Virus record (IMG/VR): IMGVR_UViG_3300013125_000879
Location: 1 to 26,985 of that record
DNA length: 26,985 nt
Origin: a virus
Reading direction: 5' to 3' (one strand)
Position numbers and translations under genes: made by a program. Of the stretch, positions 2,641 to 26,288 are shown one piece after another (positions within the stretch are counted from its first letter, which is position 1; each line of letters opens with the position of its first letter). The notes beneath the pieces were generated by a model, which was not told the origin of the DNA, searched no databases, and saw nothing but the letters and a program-made list of their open reading frames with translations.

Positions 2641-5600
2641 GTGAATAATTTACTATTTTTTAATAATAAGGGGTATCCACATAATTTTCAATATAATGAT
2701 AATACGGAATGCTGGGAAGGAAAAATAATTTTTGATGAAAATTCGGATCAGACATTCAAAACACAAAGTTTACACATATTCGAAAATGTTGAACCAATAG
2801 AATTTCAAATTGATGTTGATTTATTACAATTAGAATATAATAATAATAGCGGGTTGACTATTACTAGTGAAACTGATTTTAGTGATGAAATAATAACAAA
2901 TATATTAAAGGTAAACGAGTCTGATTCTTTTTATTCTAAATGGATATTCGGTGATAACTTTCATAGAAAATTTCCTGTTGGTACCATAATTCAATTCTCT
3001 GGTATAACACACGCTGATTTTAATGACAATCAATTTTTCACAGTTTTAACAGTTAAAAAGAACGCTTTTCTAATATTAACTAGAACTGATAATAGTACAT
3101 TTAATTACACCTATATTTCAGGTGGTACTGTAAATTCACTCAATATGATTTCTATTAATGATTATAATAGAAATCTATCAGGAAATACTTATTTTTTTCA
3201 AAATTTATATAGTGATAAAAAATTCTCTATTATTAATTCAGATCTTAATGATGCTATTGTAAGTGTAAAACAAAGTGGTATGACCAATTCATATTTAAAT
3301 GAATTACAATTAAATGGCTTCAAAGATCAAATATTCACACTAAAAATTGGTCTATTAACCGAAAGACCAAAGATATTACAGAATGATGTTGTTCTAACAG
3401 AAGAAATCTATAACTATTATATAGATGTTGGAAAATATGCCAGATTACTATCACCAGAAACTATTTATACTGTTAGTGGTCCAACATTACAGAAAAATGA
3501 GATTATATTTGAGGATTATCTCGGTAATAAATTATATAGTGGTTACACATTTATTGTTGATTCATTAGTTGATACAAAAGATATATCAACAAAAAAATTA
3601 ATATTTAAACAATACTATCAACAATCAGATGATTATCAATATTATAAATATGATAAACTTTATTTTAAAAATCAATGGAATGTTATCTACCTCAGTGATA
3701 CAATAGACATTAATATAGGAGATACCTTACAATTAAGTGGTATATCTGGTAGTACTTTATATATGCATAATAGAGAATTTAATATAAGTAATGTTGTATA
3801 TAATAGTGCAACTAACACTACTATTTTATTTACACCTGACTATGTTATTGACGAAGAAAATAGTTACTATTTAATAAAGAAGAAACTATCATCTAATCAA
3901 ATAACAAAAATTAAAGTAACACCAAGCGGCAACGTTACAGCATTTAATAATATAGTAATAAAAAATGCTTATTGTTACTTAACATCAAATATTCTAAATT
4001 TCTCTCAATATTATGTTACTGGTGTGACTAATAGTGTAAATTCTAATACTATTGATGCTTTTGTAGATAAATATAAATCAACGTTATATCAATATGGTAT
4101 AGATATCTATCATACACTTAGAAGTAGTATAGATTATTTATCTATTGAAAGTTTATATGGTTCATATACAAATTATTTTAGTGTATCTGGTTATACGAAT
4201 GGTGTTAAAATTACAGATAACTTTTCTTTATCAATAAATGGTTTAACTCAAAAATATAACATAATCACAAATGAGAAATTATATAATGAATATACAAATA
4301 GATCAGATGAAGATTTATACAAATCAGAAGTTAGTTCTGAAATTTTATTTAATTTGAATAATGATACTGATAGATTTGGATTTAGATTAACTCTTAATGG
4401 AAACCAATATTATATTAGTTACTCAGCTGATACAATCAACACTATAAATAGTTTTATAGATACCTATTATACAATATTTGAAAATAATGGTTTTATTATC
4501 AATAGTGAATATAGTTCAAACTACTCAGGTTACACCTTAGTTATAAGTACTGATGTTGATATTTGGAATTTGAATATAATGGTTAATATTTTATCAACTT
4601 ATCAAATAATCGAACATCAAAGAAATAGAGCTATATTATTGAGTGGTAATGAAATACATAGTACTAACAATTTGTTTAATTTTGGTTTATCAACAGGTAT
4701 GTTAATAAAACTTACTGGAAGTACATATAGTCAAAATAATAAGGAATATAATATAATTAGTTTAACTCAGGATATAATAGGCTTATCATATCAAGGTGTA
4801 TTTGAAAGTGAAAATGATGTCTCTATCTATTTTTCAACTAGAGAATTTATTAGAAAACCCAGAGGTGAATATGAGAAGGATATATATTTAAGAGCTTATT
4901 GGAGCTTACCATATGATAATAGCCTGGATGAGTCTATATTTTTCTATGATATAACCGGAGATCAATTAACACCATATAATAATAATTCTCTATTGACTTA
5001 CACTGGTCAAAAACCTCTAATTGATAGTACAACCAATAATGTTGTTTTTTTAAATACCGAACCTAATAAAGATTACACACGGGTGAATAATCCTAAGTAT
5101 CAACAAACTGTATTTGATGAATTAATTTTTAAATTGGAGCAATTAGATTCATCTGAAAGTTATAACTGGATACCTGAACCATTAGAAATCTTTATTGGAT
5201 ATAATTCACCAAATGAAGGAGTGAATACTAGAATATTAAAAATTGAGAAAATTGAAAAACAACAAAATAATGACAATTATTTTTCATATAGTGGATATAC
5301 AAATTCAGGTTCATCAATTTCGACCCCCAATTTTATACTAAGTGGATATACATTAAATTATCAAGCACCTATAGATTTTAATTTTATATCTTATGGATTT
5401 AAGAAAGATCAAATCATTAAAATAACCTTTAAGGATCAAAACGAAACGAATCAGAAAATATTTGAAAATTATTACAACTATAAAATTCAAGATGTTTCTA
5501 GAACTAAAATCATAATTGATACTGGTTATACATATAATCAAGATACTTATGATAGTGGTATAACATACGCAACTGGATTTACTTATTTTAATTCTACTGG

Positions 5601-6876
5601 TACTACGTATTTCTTTAAATTAGAAGTTCAACCAAAAGATATACTTTATTGTCCAATGTACGGACAAACAGAAATAGAAGATATTAGATATAAAGTTAAT
5701 CTTAATAATTTAGGTGTACAATCTGAAGAAGATGTTTATCAAATATTATATCAATCTGATATACAAGATAATGCTATTGATTACACTTTATTTAATAGAA
5801 AACGAAAAGAAATGTTAACTACATTTAGAGAAATTTATGATTATATAGGTTCATATAAATCATTAGTTAATGCTATTAATTATTTTGGATATAATGATTT
5901 ACAATTATATGAATATTATAGAAATATAGATCAATCATCTCCACTTTATGGTAAATTACACAAAGTTTTAATTCCGGATATTTTTGATAATACTGTTGAA
6001 GGTTGGAATGAAATGGATTTTATTGGAGGTAAATATCAAAATCAATATTCTTGGAAGAAGACAAATTTATTTAATTTGGCATATAAAATTACAAATGAAG
6101 ATGGTGATAATGTTTTAATTTACTCATTAGATGAAGTTCAATATAAATTGACAAAATTAAAGAATTGGTTAAGAAAAAATATTATACCAGTTTCTGCTAA
6201 TTTATTAGATATTACAGGTGTAGCTGATTCAAATGGTACATTTTATCAAGAGTATGATGAATCAAATCAGACTATTAAATCAGTCGTTGAGAGAGATTCA
6301 ACGGTAGTCAATTTCACTTATACGGCAACCCTAAATTTCGGTTCAGATTATTTGATAACGGTTAATTTTTACACTATGTCTGGTGCAACCGGAACTACCA
6401 TTGATAATAATGACGTACCAGTTCATTTCACTGCAAAAATAAAGACTTTCTATCTTTCCGGTTCAACTATATTAAATCCAACTGATACACTTGTACCTGT
6501 ACAATATTTAAAAATAAATAAGAATGATTTAAAACCATTTAGTTTTAATATTAATAAATATGTAGATCCTTATATTTATATTGAGACTACAACCTATGAC
6601 AATGATGGAAGTGGATTAGGATATGTTAATAATAAATTATTTTATTATGATGAACCTAGAAATTGGTGGATAGTAAATCATAATTTTGATTTACATCAGA
6701 TGAAATATTGGCAAACAACTAATTATATTAGCAATGAACCTAAGAAATGGGTTGGTGTAGATATTGTAACTGATAGTACTGTGATATCAACACCAATAGA
6801 AACTATTGTAAAAGTGAATACTTTAAACAATACTTATATTTCACAAATATCATCAAATAGTTCTATTCAAAAATAA
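2641..6876 (+). CDS. Giant phage structural protein (baseplate/tail-like), 1411 aa
   Basis: A 1411-residue protein using GTG as start (VNNLLFFNNKGYPHNF...); no earlier in-frame start is available. It is Asn/Ser/Thr/Tyr-rich, beta-prone, and holds about twenty [ST]-G-x-T tetrapeptides (SGYT, SGIT, SGST, TGFT). The region near residues 1055-1200 (LTTFREIYDYIGSYKSLVNAINYFGY, then a conserved-looking KLKNWLRKNIIPVSA stretch) resembles the helical region of tail/baseplate proteins that recognise a repeating 'l..l..y.gs..gl..ai..fG' pattern, as in phage tail protein I-like families; this is a weak match made by eye. The next gene (6889) starts 12 nt downstream and carries the same SGYT motif, suggesting one structural operon. 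Likely part of the baseplate or tail; the exact component is unknown. Confidence 0.75.
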   Translation: MNNLLFFNNKGYPHNFQYNDNTECWEGKIIFDENSDQTFKTQSLHIFENVEPIEFQIDVDLLQLEYNNNSGLTITSETDFSDEIITNILKVNESDSFYSKWIFGDNFHRKFPVGTIIQFSGITHADFNDNQFFTVLTVKKNAFLILTRTDNSTFNYTYISGGTVNSLNMISINDYNRNLSGNTYFFQNLYSDKKFSIINSDLNDAIVSVKQSGMTNSYLNELQLNGFKDQIFTLKIGLLTERPKILQNDVVLTEEIYNYYIDVGKYARLLSPETIYTVSGPTLQKNEIIFEDYLGNKLYSGYTFIVDSLVDTKDISTKKLIFKQYYQQSDDYQYYKYDKLYFKNQWNVIYLSDTIDINIGDTLQLSGISGSTLYMHNREFNISNVVYNSATNTTILFTPDYVIDEENSYYLIKKKLSSNQITKIKVTPSGNVTAFNNIVIKNAYCYLTSNILNFSQYYVTGVTNSVNSNTIDAFVDKYKSTLYQYGIDIYHTLRSSIDYLSIESLYGSYTNYFSVSGYTNGVKITDNFSLSINGLTQKYNIITNEKLYNEYTNRSDEDLYKSEVSSEILFNLNNDTDRFGFRLTLNGNQYYISYSADTINTINSFIDTYYTIFENNGFIINSEYSSNYSGYTLVISTDVDIWNLNIMVNILSTYQIIEHQRNRAILLSGNEIHSTNNLFNFGLSTGMLIKLTGSTYSQNNKEYNIISLTQDIIGLSYQGVFESENDVSIYFSTREFIRKPRGEYEKDIYLRAYWSLPYDNSLDESIFFYDITGDQLTPYNNNSLLTYTGQKPLIDSTTNNVVFLNTEPNKDYTRVNNPKYQQTVFDELIFKLEQLDSSESYNWIPEPLEIFIGYNSPNEGVNTRILKIEKIEKQQNNDNYFSYSGYTNSGSSISTPNFILSGYTLNYQAPIDFNFISYGFKKDQIIKITFKDQNETNQKIFENYYNYKIQDVSRTKIIIDTGYTYNQDTYDSGITYATGFTYFNSTGTTYFFKLEVQPKDILYCPMYGQTEIEDIRYKVNLNNLGVQSEEDVYQILYQSDIQDNAIDYTLFNRKRKEMLTTFREIYDYIGSYKSLVNAINYFGYNDLQLYEYYRNIDQSSPLYGKLHKVLIPDIFDNTVEGWNEMDFIGGKYQNQYSWKKTNLFNLAYKITNEDGDNVLIYSLDEVQYKLTKLKNWLRKNIIPVSANLLDITGVADSNGTFYQEYDESNQTIKSVVERDSTVVNFTYTATLNFGSDYLITVNFYTMSGATGTTIDNNDVPVHFTAKIKTFYLSGSTILNPTDTLVPVQYLKINKNDLKPFSFNINKYVDPYIYIETTTYDNDGSGLGYVNNKLFYYDEPRNWWIVNHNFDLHQMKYWQTTNYISNEPKKWVGVDIVTDSTVISTPIETIVKVNTLNNTYISQISSNSSIQK

Positions 6877-6888
6877 ATATATAGGTAT

Positions 6889-7209
6889 ATGGGAAGATTA
6901 AGTAGACCTGCGAATGTTGTTAATACTGAAAATGTATCTAGTGGTTACACATACCCAATCAGTAGCGTTGTCTTGAGTGGCGAAACTAAAAATATCTATG
7001 TATTTGTTGATGAATCTGGTAATGTTAATCAAATTGAGAAAAAACAAAAAAAAGAAAGATTAAGATATTACATTGATCCGAATATGCCACAGGTAGAGTT
7101 TATTCCTGATTGTTTAATCGGTATAAATGATCCAGTGAGTGGAGATTGCTCTTTAGGTATAGGATTAGGTATAGGAGATAATCTATTTGCCAGGGCAAAC
7201 TACTCTTGA
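6889..7209 (+). CDS. Small structural-module protein, 106 aa
   Basis: Begins 12 nt after the 1411-aa structural gene and is probably co-transcribed. The N-terminal half contains SGYT and SGET motifs like those of its neighbour. The centre is basic (EKKQKKERLRYYIDP), and the C-terminal half holds Cys residues and a Gly-rich stretch (DCSLGIGLGIGDNLFARANYS). It has no signal peptide or membrane segment. Context suggests a minor tail or baseplate component; no family is recognised. Its stop codon overlaps the end of the convergent minus-strand gene by 10 nt. Confidence 0.65.
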   Translation: MGRLSRPANVVNTENVSSGYTYPISSVVLSGETKNIYVFVDESGNVNQIEKKQKKERLRYYIDPNMPQVEFIPDCLIGINDPVSGDCSLGIGLGIGDNLFARANYS

Positions 7210-7499
7210 TCTTCAAATGAATCAAGATACAATTTATTCATATATTTCTCAATATTATTACATATAGGTAATTTACCGTAAACATTCTCTTTTTCATTTA
7301 TACATCTGAATCCAACATTTTCAATGAAAAATAAATTAATTAAATTATTATCTATTTTTATACCTCTATATTGTAATAAAATTCTGAGTTGATCTTCACT
7401 ATAATTTTCTAGTAATTTATTTATAGAACTTGTGATGTTATCATCATATTTTTTATCTCTTAATCTTTGTAAACTCTCTACGATTAAAAATTTTTTCAT
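7200..7499 (-). CDS. Hypothetical protein with capsid-targeting-like N-terminus, 99 aa
   Basis: The last of three minus-strand genes, 5 nt after its upstream neighbour. The protein starts MKKFLIVESLQRLRDKK: a short basic, Phe-containing N-terminus ending in Ile-Val-Glu followed by Ser. This resembles the T4 capsid-targeting sequence (MKTYQEFIAEA) and the N-termini of several other small proteins in this window. The body is predicted to be mainly helical (SSINKLLENYSEDQLRILLQ) with two Cys residues. No known domain was recognised. The virion-packaging idea is inference only. Confidence 0.55.
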   Translation of the reverse strand: MKKFLIVESLQRLRDKKYDDNITSSINKLLENYSEDQLRILLQYRGIKIDNNLINLFFIENVGFRCINEKENVYGKLPICNNIEKYMNKLYLDSFEDQE

Positions 7500-11966: not shown

Positions 11967-12776
11967 TTAATAACTACTAGTTCCTGTGCCTTCAGCACCA
12001 CCAAATATAGAATCAACTGATGCAAAACCAACACCAAATCTATCTACATAAGGCGCAAATTTTTTCAAGTCTGCTAATGTTCTTATACCACCAGAAGCTT
12101 TAATTTTCATATCAGAGCCTTCTTGTTCTATGATTTTTCTCATTATCTGAACCTTATTTAATTCTGCTACACCTGGATTATCACTTGGTGTTTTCATTCC
12201 TGTTGAAGTTTTAATGAAATCAGCACCAGCTTCTATACATATACGAGTTGCATTTTCTGTAGCTTCTTCACTCAACTCACTTGATTCAACAATAACTTTT
12301 AAAACTATTTCATCACCATCTTTATTAGTATGAGAATGACATTCATCAACTAAGGTTTCAACATCATAAACAAAATTATAATCACTTAACCCGAAATTGT
12401 TTTTTTCTTTCTCAACATATTCTATCAATTTAGGATAATCTAACACCATATCAACCTCATCAGCTCCAGCAGCAATAACTTGTTTAGTTTCAGATAATTT
12501 TTGTTCTGTTGTATCTGTTCCGTGAGGAAAACTTACAACTGTACAAACCAATACCGGTGAATTTGAAAGTGCCTCAGCTGCAACTTTAACCATTTTTGGT
12601 AAAACACAAACTGATTTTACACCAAGATTATTAGCCTTTTCACATAAAGCCAATATATCATTTTCAGTTGCACCCGGATTGAGTAATGTATAATCTATGT
12701 GTTCAATTAAGTTAGGTTCAGCAACTGATTCATTCATTTTATTTAAGAAATTCTTAAAATCAAATATTTTGCTCAT
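11967..12776 (-). CDS. deoC: Deoxyribose-phosphate aldolase (DeoC) with N-terminal extension
   Basis: This 269-aa class I aldolase cleaves 2-deoxyribose-5-phosphate to glyceraldehyde-3-phosphate and acetaldehyde. Family motifs are intact: IDYTLLNPGAT (27-37), EVDMVLDY with D109, DFIKTSTGM with the Schiff-base lysine K189, KASGGIRT with the second lysine K226, and a C-terminal Tyr (Y269) that assists proton transfer in characterised enzymes. The fold is complete and should be active. Oddly, the usual start of the family lies about residue 22; the extra N-terminus (MSKIFDFKNFLNKMNES) resembles the capsid-targeting-like N-termini of neighbouring small proteins, with Met-Asn-Glu before Ser. In the phage it could salvage deoxyribose from degraded host DNA or be packaged in the virion. 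Probably an operon with the 66-aa gene at 11752. Confidence 0.92.
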   Translation of the reverse strand: MSKIFDFKNFLNKMNESVAEPNLIEHIDYTLLNPGATENDILALCEKANNLGVKSVCVLPKMVKVAAEALSNSPVLVCTVVSFPHGTDTTEQKLSETKQVIAAGADEVDMVLDYPKLIEYVEKEKNNFGLSDYNFVYDVETLVDECHSHTNKDGDEIVLKVIVESSELSEEATENATRICIEAGADFIKTSTGMKTPSDNPGVAELNKVQIMRKIIEQEGSDMKIKASGGIRTLADLKKFAPYVDRFGVGFASVDSIFGGAEGTGTSSY

Positions 12777-13494: not shown

Positions 13495-13653
13495 GTGAAA
13501 TTCAATAAGAAAAAAAGTATTAGTATATCAATACATCCGGAGATATTAAATTTAATGACAATTTACTGCAAAAAACATAAGATTAATAAATCAAAGTTCA
13601 TAGAAAATAAAATTATTAAGTATCTCGAAACAAAAAATAATAAAATAGAATGA
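13495..13653 (+). CDS. Ribbon-helix-helix DNA-binding protein, 52 aa, GTG start
   Basis: Starts with GTG (VKFNKKKSISISIHPEI...) because the next ATG lies inside the fold. The strand KSISISI, helix A (PEILNLMTIYCKKHK), the turn INKS and helix B (KFIENKIIKYLE) give a complete RHH pattern. It is closely related to the protein at 19697 (shared KKK[ST]xSxSI and KINKSK[FY]IE-like block). Its TGA overlaps the ATG of the SbcD-SbcC gene (13650), so the two are translationally coupled and the regulator may control that gene. Confidence 0.7.
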   Translation: MKFNKKKSISISIHPEILNLMTIYCKKHKINKSKFIENKIIKYLETKNNKIE

Positions 13654-16600
13654 TAATTGCACACTTGGGTGATATCCATATATTGAATGAAAATAGACAC
13701 GATGAATATCAGAAAGTATTTAATAGATTATACAAAAAATTACAAGAATTAAAACCTGATAGGATAGTAATTGTAGGTGATTTATTTGAAAGTAAATTAA
13801 CTTTATCTAACGAAGCTAAATTATTAGCTGGAAATTTTTTAAATAATTTATCTAAAATATCAAAAATTATAATTACTTGTGGTAATCATGATTTGAACTA
13901 TAAATCATTAAACCGAATTGATAGTATTGAAACCATTGTTAAATTGATAAATAATACTAATATTACTTATTATAATAAAAGTGGTATTTATAAAGACGAT
14001 CAAATTTCTTGGGTAGTATATCATCATCCAGAAAAAAATATAGATCCTTGGATCGGGCAGATAAAAGATAAAAATCAAATTTATGTTGGACTTTTTCATG
14101 ATCCGATACAAAATTCTTCAACCGATATAGGTAAAGTATTTACCGATAAGTCACTAAAAGATATATCATATTTTAATCATAATGATTATATGATGCTTGC
14201 CGATATTCATAAAAGACAATACTTTAGAAAAAATAAATCAGCTGCATATTGTGGATCATTAATACAAAAAGATTATGGTGAATCAATTGATAAACACGGA
14301 TTTCTTTTGTGGAATTTAATAAGTGCGACAGAATTTGAAATAACAGAATATGATATTGAAAATGATCATAGATTTCTTAATTTATATATCGATGAAGAAA
14401 CTGACTATGAAAATCTTAAAATTAAAGTAGAAAATTTAACCGAAGATACTGAAATTAAGGTTCATTGGAAAGATTTAAGTTCAAATATTAATACTATTAA
14501 TGAAAAACAAATCAGAGATTATATCAAAGAAAATTTGAATACGACAAAAGTTAAATTTGAAAAAATTTTTGTTTATAATGACGTTATAGATTCTGAAATG
14601 TTATCTGAATCTTTAGATTTAAGTGATACTGACATACAAAATAGTATATTTAAGGAATACCTTGAAAATCAAAAATATAAAAAAGAAGATATTGATGAAA
14701 TTTTAAAAATTGATCAAATTATCAACAATAGATTGAACCTTAAAAATACTAAAGCTAATATACAATGGAGTGTAGATAAGTTCTGGTTTAGTAATTTTAA
14801 ATCATATGGTGACGATAATAAAATTGATTGGAATGATATTGATGGCATGATTCAAATAATCGGATTAAATCAGGAAGGTAAAACTACAATTTTGGATGCT
14901 TTGACTTATATTTTATTTGGTAAAACAACAGTTACCTTATCACCTGAAAAATTCGGTGATAGTAGATACATAAATAATAAAAGAGATTTGGACTATTGCT
15001 TAGGTGGTGCCATTATAGATGTGGATGGTGAAAAATTTATTATACAACGAAAAACAGAAAGAATTTGGAATAAGAACAAGACGATTATTTCTAGTTGCCC
15101 AACCACACTAGATTTCTATAAAAATGAAGTATCAGAAAAAAATAAATTAACAGATGAAGTCAGAGTAAAAACGCAAGAAAAATTAGAACTAATTATAAGT
15201 GACATAGCATCATTTATAAGATTATCATACACTAACGCTGATAATCTGAACTCAATATTATCAGAAACCAGAAGTGTTTTTATGGATAATATAATCAGAG
15301 ATGCAGGATATGATGTTTTTGAAATTAAGTTAGAGGAATTTAAAGAATATAAGAAAGAATTGAGTGAGGAAAAAATAATACTAGATATACAAGAATCAGA
15401 AGCTAGAATAGATGAGTTAAGCACAAATATTGAAAATAAAAAAATAGAAATAGATACCAATAAGACCTTAATAGAAAATTTTGATAATGAATTATCTAAC
15501 CTCAACAACAAAAGAGATGATTTTAATAAAAAATTAAATAATATAGACTCATCAATGATTAATTTTGATGAAAATATTAATCTTAATTCTATTGAAAATT
15601 ACGATAAAAAAATAGAGGAACTTAAAATTCAAAATGTCATTTTGGAAAGAGAAATTAAAGAATTACCTTTAAACTTTGATACAAAGAAACTTAATGATCT
15701 AAAAATAAAACTTAAAGAAACTAATGATAAAATATCTGAAAGAAAAGATGAAATTTCAAATTTAAAAAATCTTATAACAGAATCAGATAATAAAAAAGAT
15801 AAGGTACTATCTAAAATTAAAGAATTAAAAGAGTCTGAGATTAAGAAATTACAATTTAAAATTAATAATAATGAACTTAAGATAGAAATGATTAAGAATC
15901 AAATAGATAAAATCATAAATGAAGAAATTAGAAATATTGATTCACAAATTCAAAATATAATTCTACAAAGGAATGAAATAAATAATAAAATTAAGCTACT
16001 ACAAAAGGATGGAATTAATGCTAAAAATGCAAATGATAAGCTAGATAAAGAAATAGATGAGTTGAAAAATTCAACATCTTGTCCAACTTGTGGTAGAGAA
16101 TATGATAGCAACGATCCAAAGTACTCTGAGCATTTGAATCATCTACAAGAAAATATCAAAGAATTAGGAGAAGAGAAAAAGGAAAATACAGATAAAATAC
16201 AGAAATACTTATCAGAATATAAAAAACTGAAAAATACTCTACCTAGCTTAGATGATAAGGAAAAAGTATTAGAAGAGAGCAAGAAGACAATTAATAATAG
16301 TATTTATTCTGAGAAAGTTAAAGAAAAAATTGTTGAAGCAGGTGATGTTAACATTCTAAAACAAGATAATTTAACTACTAAATCAATAATTGAACAGATT
16401 AAAAATGATAATTATGATAATGCGCCATCACTTAAAGAAAATGTTTTAAGAGGTGAAATCATACTTAAAAAGATAGAAATTTCTAGAAATGAAAATTTAA
16501 AAGTTATTAAAAATCTAGAAATAGAATTAAAAAATTTCAATATTGAAAGTATTGAAAATGATATAGAAATTGAAGAAAAATTGAAAGAAAAATTTGAACT

Positions 16601-17378
16601 TAGAAATACAAAGATTTCTCAAAAAGATAATATAAAACTTTCAATTGAAAATTTTGAACTGAAAATAAAAGATTTACAATTAGAGATAGATAAATTTCAA
16701 GAGTATAAATCTAAAATTGAAGAAAATGAAAAAATTCAAATATCTATCAACGATTTAGAACAAAAGATTAATATTATCAAAGATAATATTAAAGAGATTA
16801 ATCAAGAAAATATAGATTATGAGAAAGATATATTATTAAAAAATAGTGAAATAGATACAATATCTATTAACATTAAAAAATATTTGAAACAAAGAAAAAA
16901 AGAAGAACTTCTTAAAGAATATCAAAAATGCATATCAAGAGATGGTATACCTACCTTTTTATTGAAAAAATCTATACATCTAATAAATAAGGAATTGAAT
17001 GATTTATTATCTAATGTTAATTTTACTTTATTTTTTGATGAGAATTTAACTTTAAGAATGAGTGCTAATGATAGATTGGATGTAAGTCAAAACTCTATAG
17101 AAAGTTCAGGAATGGAAAGAACATTCTGCTCACTTGCCTTAAAAATAGCATTAAGAGAAATTAACGTTAAATCTAAACCAACTTTCATTTTTCTTGATGA
17201 AATTATGGGTAAATTAATTGGTGATTCAGTACAACAATTTATAGATTTTTTAGATGTAATTAAAACAAAAGTAAAAAAAGTTGTTATTATAGAGCATGTT
17301 CATCCGATAAACTATCAAGCTCTCATTGAAGTTAAAAAAGATGAAAAATTGATCTCACACCTAGAATTAAAATATTAG
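13650..17378 (+). CDS. Fused SbcD-SbcC (gp47-gp46, Mre11-Rad50) recombination nuclease
   Basis: A 1242-aa single polypeptide joining the two subunits that are separate in T4 (gp47, gp46) and bacteria. Residues 1-230 are a Mre11/SbcD metallophosphoesterase: D8 and H10 (LGDIH), D44 (VGDLFE), N79/H80 (CGNHD), H150 (GLFHD) and H187 (ADIHKRQ). Residues about 370-1242 are a Rad50/SbcC SMC-like ATPase: Walker A IIGLNQEGKTT (403-413), long coiled coils, a zinc hook with C811-P-T-C814, signature SSGMERT (1152-1158), and Walker B FIFLDE (D1183, E1184). The complex resects DNA ends for recombination-dependent replication and repair. All catalytic motifs are present. Preceded by a coupled RHH gene. Sure of function, less sure how unusual the fusion is. 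Confidence 0.93.
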   Translation: MIIAHLGDIHILNENRHDEYQKVFNRLYKKLQELKPDRIVIVGDLFESKLTLSNEAKLLAGNFLNNLSKISKIIITCGNHDLNYKSLNRIDSIETIVKLINNTNITYYNKSGIYKDDQISWVVYHHPEKNIDPWIGQIKDKNQIYVGLFHDPIQNSSTDIGKVFTDKSLKDISYFNHNDYMMLADIHKRQYFRKNKSAAYCGSLIQKDYGESIDKHGFLLWNLISATEFEITEYDIENDHRFLNLYIDEETDYENLKIKVENLTEDTEIKVHWKDLSSNINTINEKQIRDYIKENLNTTKVKFEKIFVYNDVIDSEMLSESLDLSDTDIQNSIFKEYLENQKYKKEDIDEILKIDQIINNRLNLKNTKANIQWSVDKFWFSNFKSYGDDNKIDWNDIDGMIQIIGLNQEGKTTILDALTYILFGKTTVTLSPEKFGDSRYINNKRDLDYCLGGAIIDVDGEKFIIQRKTERIWNKNKTIISSCPTTLDFYKNEVSEKNKLTDEVRVKTQEKLELIISDIASFIRLSYTNADNLNSILSETRSVFMDNIIRDAGYDVFEIKLEEFKEYKKELSEEKIILDIQESEARIDELSTNIENKKIEIDTNKTLIENFDNELSNLNNKRDDFNKKLNNIDSSMINFDENINLNSIENYDKKIEELKIQNVILEREIKELPLNFDTKKLNDLKIKLKETNDKISERKDEISNLKNLITESDNKKDKVLSKIKELKESEIKKLQFKINNNELKIEMIKNQIDKIINEEIRNIDSQIQNIILQRNEINNKIKLLQKDGINAKNANDKLDKEIDELKNSTSCPTCGREYDSNDPKYSEHLNHLQENIKELGEEKKENTDKIQKYLSEYKKLKNTLPSLDDKEKVLEESKKTINNSIYSEKVKEKIVEAGDVNILKQDNLTTKSIIEQIKNDNYDNAPSLKENVLRGEIILKKIEISRNENLKVIKNLEIELKNFNIESIENDIEIEEKLKEKFELRNTKISQKDNIKLSIENFELKIKDLQLEIDKFQEYKSKIEENEKIQISINDLEQKINIIKDNIKEINQENIDYEKDILLKNSEIDTISINIKKYLKQRKKEELLKEYQKCISRDGIPTFLLKKSIHLINKELNDLLSNVNFTLFFDENLTLRMSANDRLDVSQNSIESSGMERTFCSLALKIALREINVKSKPTFIFLDEIMGKLIGDSVQQFIDFLDVIKTKVKKVVIIEHVHPINYQALIEVKKDEKLISHLELKY

Positions 17379-18018: not shown

Positions 18019-18702
18019 ATGAATATTGAATTAGACGAAACTCAAAAAATTTCAGTGGTTTTTGATAAAACCGCTAGCCACAATGTTGATCCTCAGAAAG
18101 GATTTACTCCGCTTTGTCCTGACGAATTGCCAGTAAATGAAGGTGATAAAATTGTAGACGAATTGAATGGTCAAAACAATTTGGTTAAGTATAAAACTGT
18201 TTCTAAAGATGTTCATCCTGCTAATGCAATTTGGTTGGCAAATTCGAAAAAGCCTCAATTTACACCAGTTAAAGGTGAAAATGTTGATATTGCTTGGAAT
18301 GCACATTGTATGTCCGGTACTTACGGTATGGAACTTATTGATGGTCTTCCTGAAATGAAAGAGTATGATTTCTTTCTTGCAAAAGGCTTTGAACCTGACC
18401 TTCATCCATATTCAAGCTGTTATCATGATCTTAACAAAAAAATTTCTACCGGACTTATTGAATGGTACGAATCAAAAAATATTACTACTGTGATTGTTGC
18501 TGGATTAGCCACAAATTTCTGCGTATCAGAGACATGTAAGGATTTATCTGAAGCAGGATTTCAGGTTATTCTTAATCTTGGTGGATGCAGAGGCATCGGA
18601 ACTGAAGAAGAAATTAATAAAATCGTTAATGAATTAGTTGATACATTTAATGTAATTATCGTAAATTCTTATAACGAAATTGAAGTTACTCTCCAACCTT
18701 GA
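18019..18702 (+). CDS. pncA: Nicotinamidase (PncA)
   Basis: A 227-aa isochorismatase-fold amidohydrolase that deamidates nicotinamide to nicotinate. The catalytic triad is visible: D24 (VDPQKGFTP), K122 (LAKGFEPD) and C168 (LATNFCVSE). The metal site fits D64 and H66 (KDVHPA) with H96 (WNAHCMSGTYG). Length and order suit the PncA family, and the HCM-GT and GLAT-CV blocks support nicotinamidase. Its product is the substrate of PncB, whose gene lies 2.1 kb downstream on the same strand. Codons include more G/C (CCG, GCC, GGC) than in neighbours, perhaps recent acquisition. Its 3' end overlaps the convergent GIY-YIG gene by 34 nt. Confidence 0.9.
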   Translation: MNIELDETQKISVVFDKTASHNVDPQKGFTPLCPDELPVNEGDKIVDELNGQNNLVKYKTVSKDVHPANAIWLANSKKPQFTPVKGENVDIAWNAHCMSGTYGMELIDGLPEMKEYDFFLAKGFEPDLHPYSSCYHDLNKKISTGLIEWYESKNITTVIVAGLATNFCVSETCKDLSEAGFQVILNLGGCRGIGTEEEINKIVNELVDTFNVIIVNSYNEIEVTLQP

Positions 18703-19403
18703 TACCTTTTGTTTAATCTCTTCGAATGATATAATACCCATTTTTTAGAATTATATTCAGGATGCTTCTCTAAAAAATCTGGTATTCCAGAAGCAGTAAT
18801 GTATTTTTTATCATCAGGTGTTAAAATTTCAAATACTCCAACATTTGGATTTTTAGCACCTTTTTTTGTTTCACTATACAACTTTTTTGTTTTTTTACTT
18901 CTTTTTAATCCGAAAGATGGTGACAACTCACCTTTTTTACCATAATTCCAATTACCTTCACCACTATGTCTCTCACTTGCAATTTTCTTTTGTTTTTCTG
19001 ATGCCTGATAGATACCAGTTTTACCTTTATTCCAAGGTGTTTTTCCTTCTCTTGATTTTCTAATTTTTTCTTTTGTTTCATCTGAATGTTTTTTACCATA
19101 AAAACCATTATTTTTACCATATAAAACAGGATAATCACCTCCACCTTTACAAATATTATATCCTTCCTCTATTGTATTATAATATTTAATCCAATATTTT
19201 TCTCTTTCGTTCAATTCTTCTTTATCTTCACAATATTCTATAATACCTCTTACAAAATTATCTAATCCATATTTTTTTATATCTTCTAATAGTTTAGGAC
19301 CACTACCACGATAATTATCATATTCTATGTCAGTTGAATGTTGTCCTATATATGCTTTACCATTAGTAAGATTTACAGTTTTATAAATATATTTATATTT
19401 CAT
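18669..19403 (-). CDS. GIY-YIG homing endonuclease with NUMOD3 motifs
   Basis: A 244-aa protein. Residues 1-85 form a GIY-YIG nuclease variant: YIYKT (5-9) with AYIGQHS (17-23), RGSG (32-35) and the helix LNEREKYWIKYY with a candidate catalytic Glu near 68. NUMOD3-type DNA-binding repeats follow (FYGKKHSDETKEKIRKSREGK at 101-121, then TPWNKGKTG), with repeated K/G-rich modules to about residue 200. The C-terminus (KSKKWVLYHSKRL-like, ending QGWRVTSISL) resembles the DNA-binding tails of T4 Seg/I-TevI-like enzymes. The ATG overlaps the TGA of the RHH gene upstream (ATGA). It is antisense to pncA and overlaps its end, so pncA or its flank may be the homing target. No sign of decay. Confidence 0.88.
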   Translation of the reverse strand: MKYKYIYKTVNLTNGKAYIGQHSTDIEYDNYRGSGPKLLEDIKKYGLDNFVRGIIEYCEDKEELNEREKYWIKYYNTIEEGYNICKGGGDYPVLYGKNNGFYGKKHSDETKEKIRKSREGKTPWNKGKTGIYQASEKQKKIASERHSGEGNWNYGKKGELSPSFGLKRSKKTKKLYSETKKGAKNPNVGVFEILTPDDKKYITASGIPDFLEKHPEYNSKKWVLYHSKRLNKRYQGWRVTSISL

Positions 19404-19558
19404 AGTATTATATCTTTTTTCAGGACATTATTATCTTTCAAGTCTTTATATATTAAATATTCAATATACTTAGATTTATTTTCAAATTTTTCTAAAAAAG
19501 TATATACATTACTATTTAATGATATTGATACTTTTCTTTTTGTTTTTGGTTTTTTCAT
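19400..19558 (-). CDS. Ribbon-helix-helix DNA-binding protein, 52 aa
   Basis: The product has a basic N-terminus (MKKPKTKRK), a strand VSISLN, helix A (NVYTFLEKFEN), then K-S-K and helix B (YIEYLIYKDLK): an RHH repressor pattern. Its stop overlaps the ATG of the GIY-YIG gene (ATGA), so they are coupled and it may regulate that gene. It is divergent to the RHH gene at 19697 and carries the same upstream element as the gene at 13211. Confidence 0.72.
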   Translation of the reverse strand: MKKPKTKRKVSISLNSNVYTFLEKFENKSKYIEYLIYKDLKDNNVLKKDIIL

Positions 19559-19573
19559 ATTTATTTAGTATTT

Positions 19574-19616
19574 TTATAGTATATATAAATAAAAAAATGT
19601 CATATTTTTCCATTTT
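19574..19616. promoter_or_regulatory. Shared 18-bp block with degenerate inverted repeat (copy B)
   Basis: TTATAGTATATATAAATA (19574-19591) is identical to copy A at 13381-13398. It is followed by AAAATG (19594-19599) and CATTTT (19611-19616), the same arms as in copy A with a weaker centre. It lies between the divergent RHH genes at 19558 and 19697, consistent with a shared operator or promoter. Confidence 0.5.
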
Positions 19617-19696
19617 GATTTGGCAGTTAGAAAATTTGGTCTTTTTTATCTTTTTTATTTTAAACCATTTTCAATTTTTTATCTATAAAAAAATAA

Positions 19697-19864
19697 ATGG
19701 CAAGACCAAAAACAACTGATAAGAAGAAAACTTTATCAGTTTCAATTAATATTGAATTAGATGAAATCTTGGATAAGATTTGTGAGGAAAAGAATATTAA
19801 CAAATCTAAATACATAGAACATCTTATTAAGAAAGCAATGGAGAAAGAAAAAAGCAGAGATTGA
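19697..19864 (+). CDS. Ribbon-helix-helix DNA-binding protein, 55 aa
   Basis: MARPKTTDKKK leads into strand TLSVSIN, helix A (ELDEILDKICEEKN), turn INKS and helix B (KYIEHLIKKAMEKE). It is the paralogue of the protein at 13495 (shared KKK-x-[IL]S[IV]SI and INKSK[FY]IE). It ends inside a terminator hairpin. Likely a dimeric repressor acting at the shared element between it and the divergent RHH gene. Confidence 0.75.
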   Translation: MARPKTTDKKKTLSVSINIELDEILDKICEEKNINKSKYIEHLIKKAMEKEKSRD

Positions 19865-19874
19865 CACAATCTCT
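19856..19874 (+). terminator. Intrinsic terminator overlapping an RHH stop codon
   Basis: AGAGATTG and CAATCTCT form an 8-bp stem with an ACA loop, followed by ATTTTTATTTT. The stop codon of the RHH gene (19862-19864) lies within the hairpin. It separates the RHH gene from the lipoprotein promoter. Confidence 0.75.
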
Positions 19875-19893
19875 ATTTTTATTTTAAATAACA

Positions 19894-19925
19894 TTTGTTT
19901 ATTTGAAAAAGCATGATTATATTTG
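19894..19925 (+). promoter_or_regulatory. Bacteroidetes-type promoter for the lipoprotein genes
   Basis: TTTG (19894-19897), 20-nt spacer and TATATTTG (19918-19925) match the Bacteroidetes housekeeping sigma consensus (TTTG / TAnnTTTG). The sequence TATATTTGTATTCTAAT recurs exactly at the pncB promoter. It lies 46 nt before the first lipoprotein start. Confidence 0.75.
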
Positions 19926-19971
19926 TATTCTAATAATAATTCAATAAAAAATAAATTAACATAAAAACAAG

Positions 19972-20436
19972 ATGAAAAATTTTATTACATTTTTAAGTAT
20001 TAGTATTTTAATGACGATGTTGTCGTGCGACAATAAGAGTAACGTCAGAAAAGAATTTGTTACAGATAAATTATCTGTAAATATGTCCGAAGTCGAATTG
20101 AAAGATGTTGAGATAAAAGAATTTACACTCTCAGGAAGAGAAGCGTATGTTGAAATACACGAATATATAAGTGATAGGCAACTATTTATGCTTGATATTG
20201 CCAGATCTTTAAATCAACCTCTAAGTGGTTATTATGATAGCCTTGTTAACAAATCTGATTCAATAGCAAAATTAGCTATTGAACCAAATGTTAAAAACTT
20301 AACCTTTTACAAATTAACAGCAATTAAACTTGATAGTTCTGGTGACACAACACTATTAAATCATTATTATTTTGATAATAATAGTAATTTTGTTGATATT
20401 GGAATGAATATTTATAAAAAATCTAATAAAAAATAA
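19972..20436 (+). CDS. Putative lipoprotein, 154 aa
   Basis: A signal peptide with a lipobox (MTMLSC, lipidated Cys at residue 19) is followed by a soluble domain of about 135 aa with helices and strands (SGREAYVEIHEYISDRQLFMLDIARSL). No known family recognised. The gene is driven by a strong-looking bacterial promoter and is followed 3 nt later by a second lipoprotein, so both probably reach the host envelope together. Roles such as superinfection exclusion or lysis are speculative. Confidence 0.7.
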   Translation: MKNFITFLSISILMTMLSCDNKSNVRKEFVTDKLSVNMSEVELKDVEIKEFTLSGREAYVEIHEYISDRQLFMLDIARSLNQPLSGYYDSLVNKSDSIAKLAIEPNVKNLTFYKLTAIKLDSSGDTTLLNHYYFDNNSNFVDIGMNIYKKSNKK

Positions 20437-20439
20437 AAA

Positions 20440-20763
20440 ATGAAAAAAAATTATGTATTCCTATTCATTGTGGTTGCAATGATGGTCTCGTCTTGTGCAA
20501 ATTCTAAACATATCAGAATGCCAATTGAAAAACAAATTGATGGTAAAACTTACGTAATTGACACCACAGTAAATGTAAAACCTTATGGTCTTTTTAATCA
20601 AGAAAAGAAGAAAATTGAAGGTGTAGAATATAAATTAGTTGTTGGTAATGTAATCTGGAGCGTTATTCTGATAGAAACAATTGGTGTACCAATTTATTTT
20701 ATTGGATGGCGATTATTTGAACCTGTTGGATTAGAATCAGATAAAATTAAAATTGCAAAATAA
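20440..20763 (+). CDS. Putative lipoprotein of a conserved phage family, 107 aa
   Basis: Signal peptide with lipobox (VSSC, Cys at residue 19), then a domain containing YGLFNQEKK and the block GNVIWSVILIETIGVPIYFIGW-type hydrophobic stretch ending FEPVG. I recall this YG-x-x-N ... GNV-W-x-x-x-L-x-ET-I-x-x-P-x-Y pattern from small proteins of Bacteroidetes phages; that is recollection, not a search. The hydrophobic block may be a membrane segment. Second gene of a two-gene unit, with a strong terminator directly after it. Confidence 0.65.
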   Translation: MKKNYVFLFIVVAMMVSSCANSKHIRMPIEKQIDGKTYVIDTTVNVKPYGLFNQEKKKIEGVEYKLVVGNVIWSVILIETIGVPIYFIGWRLFEPVGLESDKIKIAK

Positions 20764-20765
20764 GT

Positions 20766-20797
20766 CAAAAAGTCCAGAAAAAATTCTGGACTTTTTG
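20766..20797 (+). terminator. Strong intrinsic terminator
   Basis: A perfect 14-bp inverted repeat (CAAAAAGTCCAGAA / TTCTGGACTTTTTG) with an AAAA loop, a few nucleotides after the second lipoprotein's stop codon. Its 3' arm overlaps the -33 TTTG of the pncB promoter. Confidence 0.9.
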
Positions 20798-20824
20798 ATT
20801 TTAAAAAAAATATATGTATATTTG
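20794..20824 (+). promoter_or_regulatory. Bacteroidetes-type promoter for the pncB-clpS-clpC operon
   Basis: TTTG (20794-20797), a 19-nt spacer and TATATTTG (20817-20824) match the host consensus and the promoter at 19894. It lies 23 nt upstream of the pncB ATG. No other strong promoter was seen before the genes up to 26288. Confidence 0.75.
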
Positions 20825-20847
20825 TATTCTAATTAATATAAAAATTT

Positions 20848-22188
20848 ATGAAACCAATAATTAGAAGTATTCTAGATAATGATCTTTATAAGCTAAGTAT
20901 GCAATTTTTTGTTCTGGATCATTATAATGATGTAGATGTAATTTATGCGTTTAGTAATCGTGATAAATCAATGAAATTTACTGCTGAAGCAGTAAAGGAA
21001 ATCAAACATCAAGTTAAATTGATGTCAAAATTAAAACTTACTGATGAAGAATATGATTGGATGAAAGAAAATCTTTATTTTCTTCCTGTAGCATATCGTC
21101 AATATTTAGCAGCTTATAGGTTCAATTCTAAACAAGTGAAAATTGTTCTCAACTCTGAAAATGAGTTACAAATTTCAATCGAAGGTAAATGGAGAGAAAC
21201 TATACTTTGGGAGGTACCACTAATGGCTATCATTTCAGAAGTTTATTTTAGAATGATTGATACTGATTGGAGTATGAAAGGTCAGGAAATTCTTGCAAAT
21301 TCAAAAGCAAAAACTTTAAGTGAAGCTGAATGTATTTTTACAGATTTTGGTACTCGTCGTAGACGCAATTTTGAAACCCAGGAAATTGTAGTTTCAGAAA
21401 TGAAAAAATACAACGGATTTGCTGGTACTAGCAATTGCTATTTAGCTATGAAATATGATGTTAAAGCGCTCGGAACTTGCGCACACGAAGCAATTGGTGC
21501 GGTTGCTGCTCTAGAAAGTCTGAATCATCCAAATAAGATATTTATGGAAAGGTGGACTAAAACCTATAAAGGCACATTAGGAACTATGCTTCCTGATACT
21601 TTTGGTATTGATACATTCCTTCGAGATTTTTCTTTAGAAAAAGCCAAATTATGGGATGGTGTAAGGCATGATTCAGGTGATCCATATGTGTTTACTGATA
21701 AGATCGTTGATCATTATAAAAAGATGAAAATTGATCCTATGAGTAAACTTATTGTATTTAGCAATGCACTAGATATAGAAACTACAATTAAATTGAAAGA
21801 ATATTGTAAAGATAAAATTCGTTGTTCTTTTGGTATTGGTACTAATTTCACTTCTGATTTTATGAAAAAGACTAATCCCAATGCAAAAAGTAATCCGATG
21901 AATATGGTCATTAAAATGACAATGGCTGATGGTATTCCAGTTGTCAAATTGTCAGATACTCCAAGTAAGGCAATTGGTGATCCAAAAATGGTCGAAATTA
22001 TGAAATATATTCATTTCTTCAATTATCTAAACGATACTATTTCTATTTTTGAAAAATCATTAGAAAAATATAAAGTGGAACTAAGTAAAAGACCTGATAG
22101 TCTATTTTATTCTGGTTTAGTTAAAGAAACAGAAGAATATATTAAAGAGTTGGAACACGAAGAAAAGAAAAATAAACTTTATAAATAG
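20848..22188 (+). CDS. pncB: Nicotinate phosphoribosyltransferase (PncB)
   Basis: A 446-aa protein aligning by eye over its full length with bacterial PncB: LDNDLYKLSMQFFVLDHY (9-26), WRETILWEVPLMAIISEVY (115-133), DFGTRRRRNFETQE (167-179), the phosphorylatable histidine in GTCAHEAIGA (H213), LRDF (258-261), GVRHDSGDP (271-279) and SFGIGTN (327-333). It converts nicotinate and PRPP to nicotinate mononucleotide, the committed Preiss-Handler step, with ATP hydrolysis through the His. It is not the nicotinamide-specific NadV/NAMPT seen in other phages. The C-terminus (about 400-446) is charged. It heads the operon pncB-clpS-TM gene-clpC, with clpS 16 nt downstream. Confidence 0.92.
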   Translation: MKPIIRSILDNDLYKLSMQFFVLDHYNDVDVIYAFSNRDKSMKFTAEAVKEIKHQVKLMSKLKLTDEEYDWMKENLYFLPVAYRQYLAAYRFNSKQVKIVLNSENELQISIEGKWRETILWEVPLMAIISEVYFRMIDTDWSMKGQEILANSKAKTLSEAECIFTDFGTRRRRNFETQEIVVSEMKKYNGFAGTSNCYLAMKYDVKALGTCAHEAIGAVAALESLNHPNKIFMERWTKTYKGTLGTMLPDTFGIDTFLRDFSLEKAKLWDGVRHDSGDPYVFTDKIVDHYKKMKIDPMSKLIVFSNALDIETTIKLKEYCKDKIRCSFGIGTNFTSDFMKKTNPNAKSNPMNMVIKMTMADGIPVVKLSDTPSKAIGDPKMVEIMKYIHFFNYLNDTISIFEKSLEKYKVELSKRPDSLFYSGLVKETEEYIKELEHEEKKNKLYK

Positions 22189-22204: not shown

Positions 22205-22498
22205 ATGAGTGACACAAAAATTGAAACGAAAACTCTAGATGAAATTTTAGCAGAATCTGGAATCTCTTCTAGTTCTGAATCTAAATTAATCTTATGGAAT
22301 GATGATCACAATTCATTTGAATGGGTAATTATATGTCTAATCACATATTTAAAATTTTCATTTGAAAGAGCTGAAAGTACAGCTTGGACTGTTCATCTTC
22401 AAGGTAAAGATATCATCAAAACTGGCTCAAAAGAATCTTTGATGCCAATTAAAAAAATATTAGAAGAAAGAGGATTGACATTATCAATCGAGGAATAA
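22205..22498 (+). CDS. clpS: ClpS-like N-degron adaptor
   Basis: A 97-aa protein with a flexible 25-residue N-terminus and a ClpS core: LILWNDDHNSFEWVI (28-42), with N32-D33-D34 that bind the alpha-amino group of an N-degron, and the TVHLQGK strand (H64). The Met40 gatekeeper of E. coli ClpS is replaced by F38, as in the 'NTFD' type that I recall from Bacteroidetes, suggesting host origin. In the family, ClpS delivers proteins with bulky N-terminal residues to ClpA-type unfoldases. It lies in one operon with an unfoldase (22743), fitting that partnership. Which host or phage proteins it selects is unknown. Confidence 0.88.
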   Translation: MSDTKIETKTLDEILAESGISSSSESKLILWNDDHNSFEWVIICLITYLKFSFERAESTAWTVHLQGKDIIKTGSKESLMPIKKILEERGLTLSIEE

Positions 22499-22742: not shown

Positions 22743-25700
22743 ATGAAGCAATCAAAAAGTGTAGAAGAGTCTATTAAAAGTAGTAAACAAATTGCAATTG
22801 GTATTGGGTCTAATACAATTAGACCCGAACATTTATTTTTAGCACTAGTTAACGAAGATCCAAAGATTTATTCTCTGTTGGAGGATATTCTTAATGTAGA
22901 AAATGTAAAACAAACTTTACATGATTGGTCACTAGCTTATCAGTATCAGATTGGAATAAATAAACTGAGAAGTAATTCTAAAATTTCACTTGATTCTGAA
23001 ACAGATAAAATTCTTAAAAATGCAATTTCATTTGCTGAAAAAATTAATGCTGATGAAGTTGAGGCTGAGCACGTATTCTCAGCAATACTAGAAAATAAAA
23101 CTAATTTGGTAACGGAACTTTTTAGTAAAAATCCTGAAATTATTAAACTTATCAAAGCAAAACTTAGAAATGAGGAGGAAGAAGTTGATTTTAGTAACGA
23201 ATTAGAAGGAGAAGGTAATATGGAAATGGAAGAACCAGTAAACGAACCCGAAGCTAAGGGTAATAAGAATTCTAAAACCAAATTAATTGATCAATTTGGT
23301 ACAGATCTTACAAAACTAGCTAAAGAGAATAGTTTAGATCCCGTTGTTGGTAGAAAAACTGAGATAAAAAGAATTTCACAAATTCTTTCGCGTAGAAAAA
23401 AGAATAATCCAGTTTTGGTAGGTGAACCAGGTGTAGGTAAATCTGCAATTGTTGAAGGTATTGCACAATTAATTGTTGAAGGTAAAGTACCAGAAAATCT
23501 AAAAGATAAGAGAATTATCACACTTGATATGGGTTCTTTGGTTGCTGGTACTAAATATCGTGGTGAATTTGAACAAAGAATGAGAGGAATCATCAAAGAA
23601 ATGGAAGAAAATCATAACATTATTCTATTTATTGATGAAATTCACACAATTATTGGTGCAGGATCTGCTCAGGGTTCTCTTGATGCTGCTAATATGTTGA
23701 AACCAGCATTATCTAGAGGATTTTTTAGGTGTATTGGTGCGACAACACTTGAAGAGTATCGTAAATATATTGAAAAAGACGCAGCTCTTGAACGTAGATT
23801 TCAGAAGGTAGATGTAGATCCCAATTCAAAATCTGAAACATTAGAAATTCTTAAAAATCTAAAAGAGAGATATGAAGATTATCATAATGTTACCTATACC
23901 GATGAAGCACTGAAATATTGTGTAGAATTAACTGATAAATATATGTCAGAAAAACATCTACCAGATAAGGCAATCGACGCTATGGATGAGGCAGGTTCAA
24001 AAGTTCATGTTAATAAGAACATTGAAACACCTAAAAAAATTCAGGATCTTGAAAAGAAAATTAAAAAAATAAAAACCGAGAAAGAATCATATGTAAATGA
24101 GCAAAAATTTGAAATGGCGGCTGAGAAAAGAGATCTTGAAAAGGAATTGACAAAACAGTTAAATTCAGAAAAAGAAATCTGGAAAGCTGAAATTTCTAAA
24201 GTTAGAGATATTGTATCCAAAGATGATGTGACAGAGGTTATCGCATTAATGACAAAAATTCCAGTAGATAATGTATCATCTGATGAAAATACTAAATTAA
24301 AAGTTATGTCTAGTAAAGTTAAAGGTATTGTTATCGGACAGGATGATGCTGTAGATAAACTTGTACGAGCAGTTAAAAGAGCAAGGATCGGTATTAAAGA
24401 TCCAAAAAGACCTGTTGGTTCATTTATTTTCTTGGGTCCTACAGGTGTGGGGAAATGTCACGGTAAAGGAACAAAAATATTAATGTTTGATGGTAGTATT
24501 AAAAATGTTGAAGATGTATTACCAGGAGATTTATTAATGGGTGATGATTCTACACCAAGAACAGTGATTTCTTTAGCAAGAGGTAAAGATAAGATGTATC
24601 GAATAAATCCATTAAACGGTGGAGATTCATTCGTTTGTAATAATCCGCATATTCTCTCACTTAAAAAAACAGGCTCATATGAAACGGTAAATATACCACT
24701 AAATGAATATCTAGAAAAGAGTAAATGGTTCAAGCACATTCATAAATTATGGAGAACTAATGTTGAGTTTCCATCAAAAATGGTTAAAATAGATCCATAT
24801 TTTATGGGATTATGGTTAGGTGATGGTAATAGTCATAATTGTGGGATAACTACAGCAGATTCTGAAGTAGTAGATTATATATACAAAATAGCTAGAGATT
24901 GGAATCTTAATGTTAGAGTTGACGAATTAGAAAACAATAAATCCAATACATACGTTTTAACGGGTAATATTAAAGGAGAGTATCATAATAATAATTTAAT
25001 GACAACTTTCAGAGAATATAATTTAATGAAGAAATATAAAGAGAAAGATATTACTAATAGCAAATTTATTCCTGATGATTACTTATATAATGATTCTTCT
25101 GTTAGAAAAGCAGTTTTAGCTGGACTTATTGATAGTGATGGGTATCATCATCATAATTGTTATTTGATATCAACCAAATATGATAAATTAGCGGATCAAA
25201 TTCTATTTTTATCTAGAAGTCTTGGATATAGAGCGTCAAAAACACCAAAAATAGTAAACGGAGATATATATTACTCTATTAATATATGTGGAGATTTAAG
25301 TGATCTTAATATTATTTTAAGTAAAAAGCAATCTACAGCAAGAAAACAAAAAAAGAACGTAATGTTGACAGGATTTGATGTGGAATATATTGGAGTTGAT
25401 GACTATTATGGATTCGAAATTGATGGAAACCATTTATATTTATTAGGTGATTTTACTGTGACTCATAACACATACCTTGCCAAAGTTCTTGCGAAGGAAC
25501 TTTTTGGATCAGAAGATTCAATGATTAGAATTGATATGAGTGAATATATGGAGAAACATACAGTTTCTAGGTTAGTTGGAGCACCTCCTGGATACGTTGG
25601 TTATGAAGATGGTGGTGAATTAACTGAAGCAGTAAGACGTAAACCTTATTCAATTATCCTTCTTGATGAAATTGAGAAAGCACATCCTGACGTTTATAAC

Positions 25701-26288
25701 ATTCTTCTTCAGCTTCTTGATGATGGTGTACTAACTGATAGTTATGGTCGTAGAGTTGACTTTAAAAACACTATTATTATTATGACATCAAATGCCGGAT
25801 CCAGAAAACTTAAAGATTTTGGAACTGGTATTGGTTTCAAGACTGATGTTTCTCAGTCTGATAAAAATAGTGTTATTGAAAAAGAATTGAAAAAAATCTT
25901 CAATCCTGAGTTTATGAATCGTATTGACGAAGTTATAATGTTTAATTCTTTAACAAAAGATAATATTGGTACCATCGTAGATGTTGAAGTTAAATCTACT
26001 ATTCAGAGGTTGAAAGATATTGGATATGAAATTACAATCACAACCTCTCTAAAAGACTTTTTATTTGAAAAAGGTTACGATCCCGATTATGGTGCAAGAC
26101 CATTAAAAAGAGCAATTCAGAAATATATTGAAGATAAAATCACAGATGCAATTATTAATGAAGAACTTAAAGTTGGTGATAGAATATCAATAAGATACGA
26201 TAAAACTTCTAATGATGTTAAAATTGTGAAATTGACTTCAAAAGATAAAGGAATCGAAACCGAATTAAGCGAGACACCGGCTAAATAA
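22743..26288 (+). CDS. clpC: ClpC-type AAA+ unfoldase interrupted by an intein
   Basis: A 1181-aa precursor; with the intein (residues 572-909) removed, 843 aa remain, the usual ClpC length. Order: Clp_N domain (1-150), D1 AAA+ with Walker A GEPGVGKS (227-234) and Walker [10 protein letters not shown], a UVR-like middle domain ([15 protein letters not shown]), D2 with Walker A GPTGVGK (565-571) completed by T910, a second Walker B ([13 protein letters not shown]) and a C-terminal domain. The GIGF motif in D2 (GTGIGFKTD) is the kind of loop that docks on ClpP, so it may work with host ClpP; no phage ClpP is seen here. It unfolds substrates, presumably those ClpS delivers. Followed by a terminator. 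Confidence 0.93.
24456..25469 (+). mobile_element. Intein with LAGLIDADG homing endonuclease in ClpC D2 Walker A
   Basis: A 338-aa in-frame insertion starting at C572 ([18 protein letters not shown]...) directly after the Walker A lysine and ending H908-N909, with Thr as the +1 extein residue. Splicing blocks: block A (start Cys), block B (NNPHILS, H636), and block F/G ([18 protein letters not shown] followed by FTVTHN). Two LAGLIDADG-like motifs, FMGLWLGDG (687-695) and LAGLIDSDG (792-800), mark the homing endonuclease. Removal would restore GPTGVGK-T and an active ATPase. It is full-length and appears functional. Confidence 0.93.

Follow-up and report, generated by a model that had tools for sequence, protein, structure and literature searches.

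The synthesis of nicotinamide adenine dinucleotide (NAD+) by phages is already known from NadV/NatV-type salvage and from the NARP1 and NARP2 systems, and the capacity has been reported for other jumbo phages. Salvage through NadV, NatV (NadM) and NadR, as in Vibrio phage KVP40 (Lee et al. 2017; PMC9503650), is encoded mostly by large phages and leads from nicotinamide to NAD+, while NARP1, which is composed of Adps and Namat, uses ADP-ribose and nicotinamide (PMC13232231, PMC12774641). The locus described here is a pncA-pncB gene pair in the IMG/VR virus record IMGVR_UViG_3300013125_000879, and the whole fragment of 26,985 bases that was analysed, hereafter the window, is embedded at 100% identity and full length in an 86-kb phage contig (G001). 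NARP1 and NARP2 are said to have been described by Osterman et al. in 2024, with NARP2 reportedly comprising a nicotinamide phosphoribosyltransferase and an adenylyltransferase. Both these systems and the window pair would rebuild NAD+ from the products of NAD+-cleaving enzymes (NADases), although the enzymes differ. The KVP40 route likewise starts from nicotinamide and has NadR in common with the window phage, but its NadV makes nicotinamide mononucleotide (NMN) directly, whereas in the window pair deamidation by PncA would come first and the route would then continue via nicotinate mononucleotide (NaMN).

NadV, NadM and NadR are the principal NAD+-synthesis enzymes in the survey of the phage NAD+ network by Iyer et al., in whose text PncA, PncB and NadE do not occur, and phage NAD+ synthesis had been proposed earlier by the same group as a counter to host NADases. 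Giant phages with NAD+ synthesis genes are also the subject of Li et al. 2024 (Microbiome 12:268, PMC11662467), whose title announces independent NAD+ synthesis in gut jumbo phages, whereas the lineage treated here comes from IMG/VR metagenomes. The jumbo phages Atu_ph07 and Phosso likewise carry PncB, an isochorismatase-family PncA, NadE and a nucleotide adenylyltransferase, but their PncB is just 32-35% identical to that of the window and sits on a very long separate tree branch. As the abstract of the gut study is said to state, part of its 668 jumbo phages carry all salvage or Preiss-Handler genes. The published text on Atu_ph07 discusses NadR and PnuC and no PncA-PncB route, and literature searches aimed at phage nicotinamidase, PncB or the Preiss-Handler pathway yielded no description of such a route in phages; a gut phage table lists 'Nicotinamidase' uncommented. 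The two genes of the window are as follows.

18019..18702, plus strand: pncA, predicted nicotinamidase (227 amino acids), step 1, nicotinamide to nicotinate and NH3
20848..22188, plus strand: pncB, predicted nicotinate phosphoribosyltransferase (446 amino acids), step 2, nicotinate and phosphoribosyl pyrophosphate (PRPP), with ATP, to NaMN

The first-pass annotation had described these as same-strand genes about 2.1 kb apart with intact catalytic residues, and both open reading frames (ORFs) were confirmed at these coordinates. Judged by protein identity, catalytic residues, selection, linkage and the complete gene sets of relatives, PncA and PncB are very probably functional and would supply the opening two steps of a phage-encoded pathway that starts from nicotinamide and ends in NAD+, a pathway for which enzyme activity, flux in infection and physiological role are predicted. 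In this pathway PncA would deamidate nicotinamide to nicotinate, PncB would convert nicotinate and PRPP, with ATP, to NaMN, NadD would adenylate NaMN to nicotinate adenine dinucleotide (NaAD), and NadE would amidate NaAD to NAD+. The PncB protein lies over both curated cut-offs for nicotinate phosphoribosyltransferases (PRK05321, 460 bits, cut-off 379; TIGR01514, 426 bits, cut-off 270) and matches PDB entry 1vlp at 6e-86. Its residues H213, R170-R172, S195, N196, D275 and S276 are invariant among 79 phage homologues, and the motif GVRHDSGDP is whole, both H213 and the motif being as first reported. The window PncB also bears a C-terminal extension of about 50 amino acids (22014-22188) without counterpart in relatives.

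For PncA, a match to the Pfam Isochorismatase family was obtained above the gathering cut-off (5e-11), and the closest PDB sequences are nicotinamidases. The AlphaFold model, for which only IMG/VR rows were used (mean predicted local distance difference test score, pLDDT, 94), has nicotinamidase structures as its best fold matches (2wt9, template modelling score, TM, 0.82/0.89) and is nearest to the nicotinamidases of Acinetobacter, Leishmania, yeast and Drosophila, with biuret, triuret and ureidoacrylate hydrolases ranking lower. The Asp-Lys-Cys triad and the Asp-His-His metal site expected in this isochorismatase fold were found in the window PncA, where the catalytic D24, K122 and C168, noted as intact from the outset, and the metal ligands D64, H66 and H96 are nearly invariant among 57 distinct phage homologues. 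The score against the NCBIfam nicotinamidase PRK11609 (4e-21, 76 bits) is under the equivalog cut-off of 174, and the superfamily does hold the three other hydrolases just named, which would suit a protein that cleaves another amide and leaves NAD+ salvage to PncB. Such a substrate is very improbable, as nicotinamidases come first by sequence and by fold, the metal site and triad are conserved, and the gene is strongly linked to PncB and NadE. The cut-off, which was built on bacterial orthologues and is in itself no functional criterion, is also missed by the PncA of phage LR756501 (134.8 bits) and of Phosso (33.7 bits). The predicted chemistry of the pair, from nicotinamide through nicotinate to NaMN, is well supported by family, structure and residue evidence, in agreement with the first-pass annotation.

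The pncA-pncB pair is under purifying selection. Ratios of non-synonymous to synonymous substitution (dN/dS; NG86 values only) of 0.14-0.28 were observed for pncA and pncB against clearly diverged relatives of the window, and with near-saturated dS they express constraint rather than a precise rate. A scan with a PncA profile returned 21 IMG/VR records with a close PncA, 20 of which encode PncB as their single NAPRTase-family gene; no second gene of the NAPRTase/NAMPT type was present in these 20. No NARP2-type gene set was thus seen, the lone NAPRTase-family gene of each record being PncB, and no search aimed specifically at Adps or Namat was made. PncB was detected in at least 207 IMG/VR loci, and linkage was counted in the best 80 of these, which are related, so that the counts are not independent events: PncA lies within 8 kb of PncB in 55 of the 80, every one on the same strand, compared with 11 of 80 bacterial loci, and NadE is near PncB in 51 of the 80 viral loci and in 3 of the 80 bacterial ones. 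PRPP synthetase, which was sought as a further partner, occurs in only 2 of 28 PncB records. The co-occurrence in phage genomes for which the first-pass annotation had called was found; that annotation had also counted it against its own proposal if the pair proved common in phages and its role there were already described, and this is partly the case, since the pair is not unique and NAD+ synthesis in jumbo phages is announced in the title of Li et al. 2024. The tight linkage to a nicotinamidase is the least described feature of the NAD+ route of these phages.

The remaining steps to NAD+ were observed in relatives of the window phage. A 330-kb relative (G006) carries PncA, PncB, NadD (TIGR00482, 142 bits, cut-off 112) and a glutamine-dependent NadE of 588 amino acids, and every predicted step from nicotinamide to NAD+ is encoded in it; in the 735-kb phage LR756501 a stretch of about 8 kb holds PncA, PncB, NadR and NadE, and a NadD-type gene is located elsewhere in the genome (31142); and in Sinorhizobium phage Phosso about 6 kb contain PncA, PncB, NadE and a gene resembling NMN adenylyltransferase. 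The sets of these two phages and of some others are complete or almost complete. By NCBIfam, NadD-type proteins are present in G006, G019, G043, G026, G034 and LR756501 (31142), several of these being partial sequences just under the cut-off. Giant phages of this group can thus probably rebuild NAD+ themselves, and the earlier assignment of the last steps to host NadD and NadE seems mistaken for the group, where relatives encode their own; for the window phage, which adds NadR, neither gene was found in the available 86 kb. Matches to PF01467 in LR756500 (35594) and G014 were dropped as NadD candidates, being of the CoaD type by NCBIfam. Counts from a NadD profile seeded with a single Phosso protein (16 loci) were set aside, the profile being too narrow. 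The locus in the cultivated phage Phosso (L019:4581-10668) comprises NadE, PncB, Nudix, NMN adenylyltransferase, PncA-like and nucleoside deoxyribosyltransferase genes and would be a good experimental model. The Acinetobacter phage MD-2021a (CAKLQH020000008.1, L018) was rejected as a phage example, its pncB being flanked by the bacterial genes serB, psd, dtd and sseA in a stretch that looks chromosomal.

The surroundings of the pair in the window contain the following further features.

13650..17378, plus strand: fused SbcD/SbcC-like nuclease (gp47/gp46 type), conserved upstream neighbour of the pncA-pncB pair in relatives
18669..19403, minus strand: GIY-YIG/NUMOD3 homing-endonuclease ORF, antisense between pncA and pncB, overlapping the 3' end of pncA; outside the pathway
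19856-19874: terminator-like hairpin between pncA and pncB
20765..20798, no strand assigned: terminator-like hairpin immediately before pncB, its stem 15 pairs long; the call is on the minus strand, and on the plus strand the sequence likewise ends in T-rich letters
22205..22498, plus strand: ClpS-like adaptor, conserved downstream neighbour of pncB
22743..26288, plus strand: ClpA/ClpB-like unfoldase with an in-frame intein (Hint and homing endonuclease), conserved downstream neighbour

The order SbcCD, PncA, PncB, ClpS, ClpA is kept in several relatives, and in the window two small ORFs lie between pncA and pncB together with the antisense GIY-YIG ORF. That the record is a mis-binned bacterial contig, the pair being ordinary host metabolism, could be imagined from the fact that pncA and pncB are common in bacteria, with a nearby PncA on the same strand at 9 of the 80 bacterial PncB loci. 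This origin is extremely improbable, as the neighbours are of phage type (the SbcCD fusion, homing endonucleases and a RuvC-like resolvase), and the window PncB lies within a phage-only clade of a tree that needs several exchanges of phage and bacterial labels. The relative G006 also shows matches to a phage DNA polymerase, to phage PhoH and, weakly, to a tail protein, together with topoisomerase II subunits, and terminase was found above the cut-off in 11 of 40 PncB records, some of them with full gene sets.

Variation in the neighbourhood was also observed. The GIY-YIG/NUMOD3 ORF stands between the pair in relative L010 as well (6566-7297, minus strand) and is absent from that position in L003, L004, L067, L068 and L221; a ParB-like gene fills the gap in L003 (9002-9847); and the unfoldase ORF is long in L221 and short in both L227 and L003, where its length indicates an intein-free form. 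Elsewhere in the window, a deoxyribose-phosphate aldolase gene, DeoC, is located at 11967-12776 on the minus strand (TIGR00126, above the cut-off), and positions 2641-6876 encode a protein of 1411 amino acids without a Pfam or PHROG match, probably a virion or tail-fibre-like protein.

Besides the PncA score under the equivalog cut-off, further points weigh against the phage-encoded nicotinamide-to-NAD+ pathway proposed above. NadD and NadE were not found in the 86-kb fragment of the window phage, where PncA and PncB are present, and they may have gone unseen for lack of sequence, the fragment being part of what is probably a far larger genome. The fragment does carry NadR, an adenylyltransferase joined to a ribosylnicotinamide kinase, and adenylyltransferases of the NadR type prefer NMN over NaMN. 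As terminator-like hairpins lie between pncA and pncB, one shared transcript is unlikely in the window phage, and the two genes probably form a conserved neighbourhood rather than a single transcription unit. Finally, because hosts commonly own these enzymes, the phage copies may merely raise an existing flux.

The likely role of the pathway would be to uphold the NAD+ pool in infection, with nicotinamide from any NAD+-cleaving enzyme of the phage or the host being recycled, while in parallel the NadR of the window phage would recycle the NMN formed by its own NAD+-dependent DNA ligase. Sources of nicotinamide are NAD+-cleaving enzymes such as host NADases and ADP-ribosylating enzymes, and NAD+-dependent ligase yields NMN. 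Whether the genes serve cofactor supply only, raising NAD+ for phage consumers (NAD+-dependent ligase, ADP-ribosyltransferases and redox enzymes) while a very large genome is replicated, is evenly balanced. The window phage has both an NAD+-dependent ligase and NadR, such a ligase is encoded in 11 of the 28 PncB records, and a 2026 review ties jumbo-phage NAD+ genes to supply for DNA synthesis; the other 17 of the 28 records, many of them fragments, show no NAD+-dependent ligase, and the ligase product is NMN rather than nicotinamide, so that the ligase alone leaves PncA unexplained.

It is plausible, though short of probable, that the pathway arose chiefly as a Preiss-Handler analogue of NARP1 and NARP2, restoring NAD+ from the nicotinamide that host NADase defences (Thoeris, SIR2-type, DSR) set free. 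The starting compound is the common product of all NADases, as established biochemistry has it, the same purpose has been argued for phage NadV systems by Iyer et al. 2021 and 2022, and NARP1 has been shown experimentally by others. However, the neighbourhood of the pncA-pncB pair showed no anti-defence gene, a role in cofactor supply requires no defence, and removal of nicotinamide could also relieve the product inhibition of NADases; Atu_ph07 and Phosso prove that phages with PncB exist, without a reported test of defence. Counter-defence and cofactor supply explain the data equally well and are mutually compatible. More tentatively still, and rather unlikely, PncA, PncB, NadD and NadE would make up a third, widespread route by which giant phages rebuild NAD+ against NADase defences, independent of ADP-ribose and of the NMN-forming NadV.

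The linkage to PncA sets the nicotinamide-to-NAD+ route apart from NadV and NARP, and predicts that any rescue would depend on nicotinamide and PRPP and not on ADP-ribose. Should the route be functional, some giant phages would make NAD+ from nicotinamide by enzymes of their own, partly free of host supply, even where the host destroys NAD+ to halt infection.

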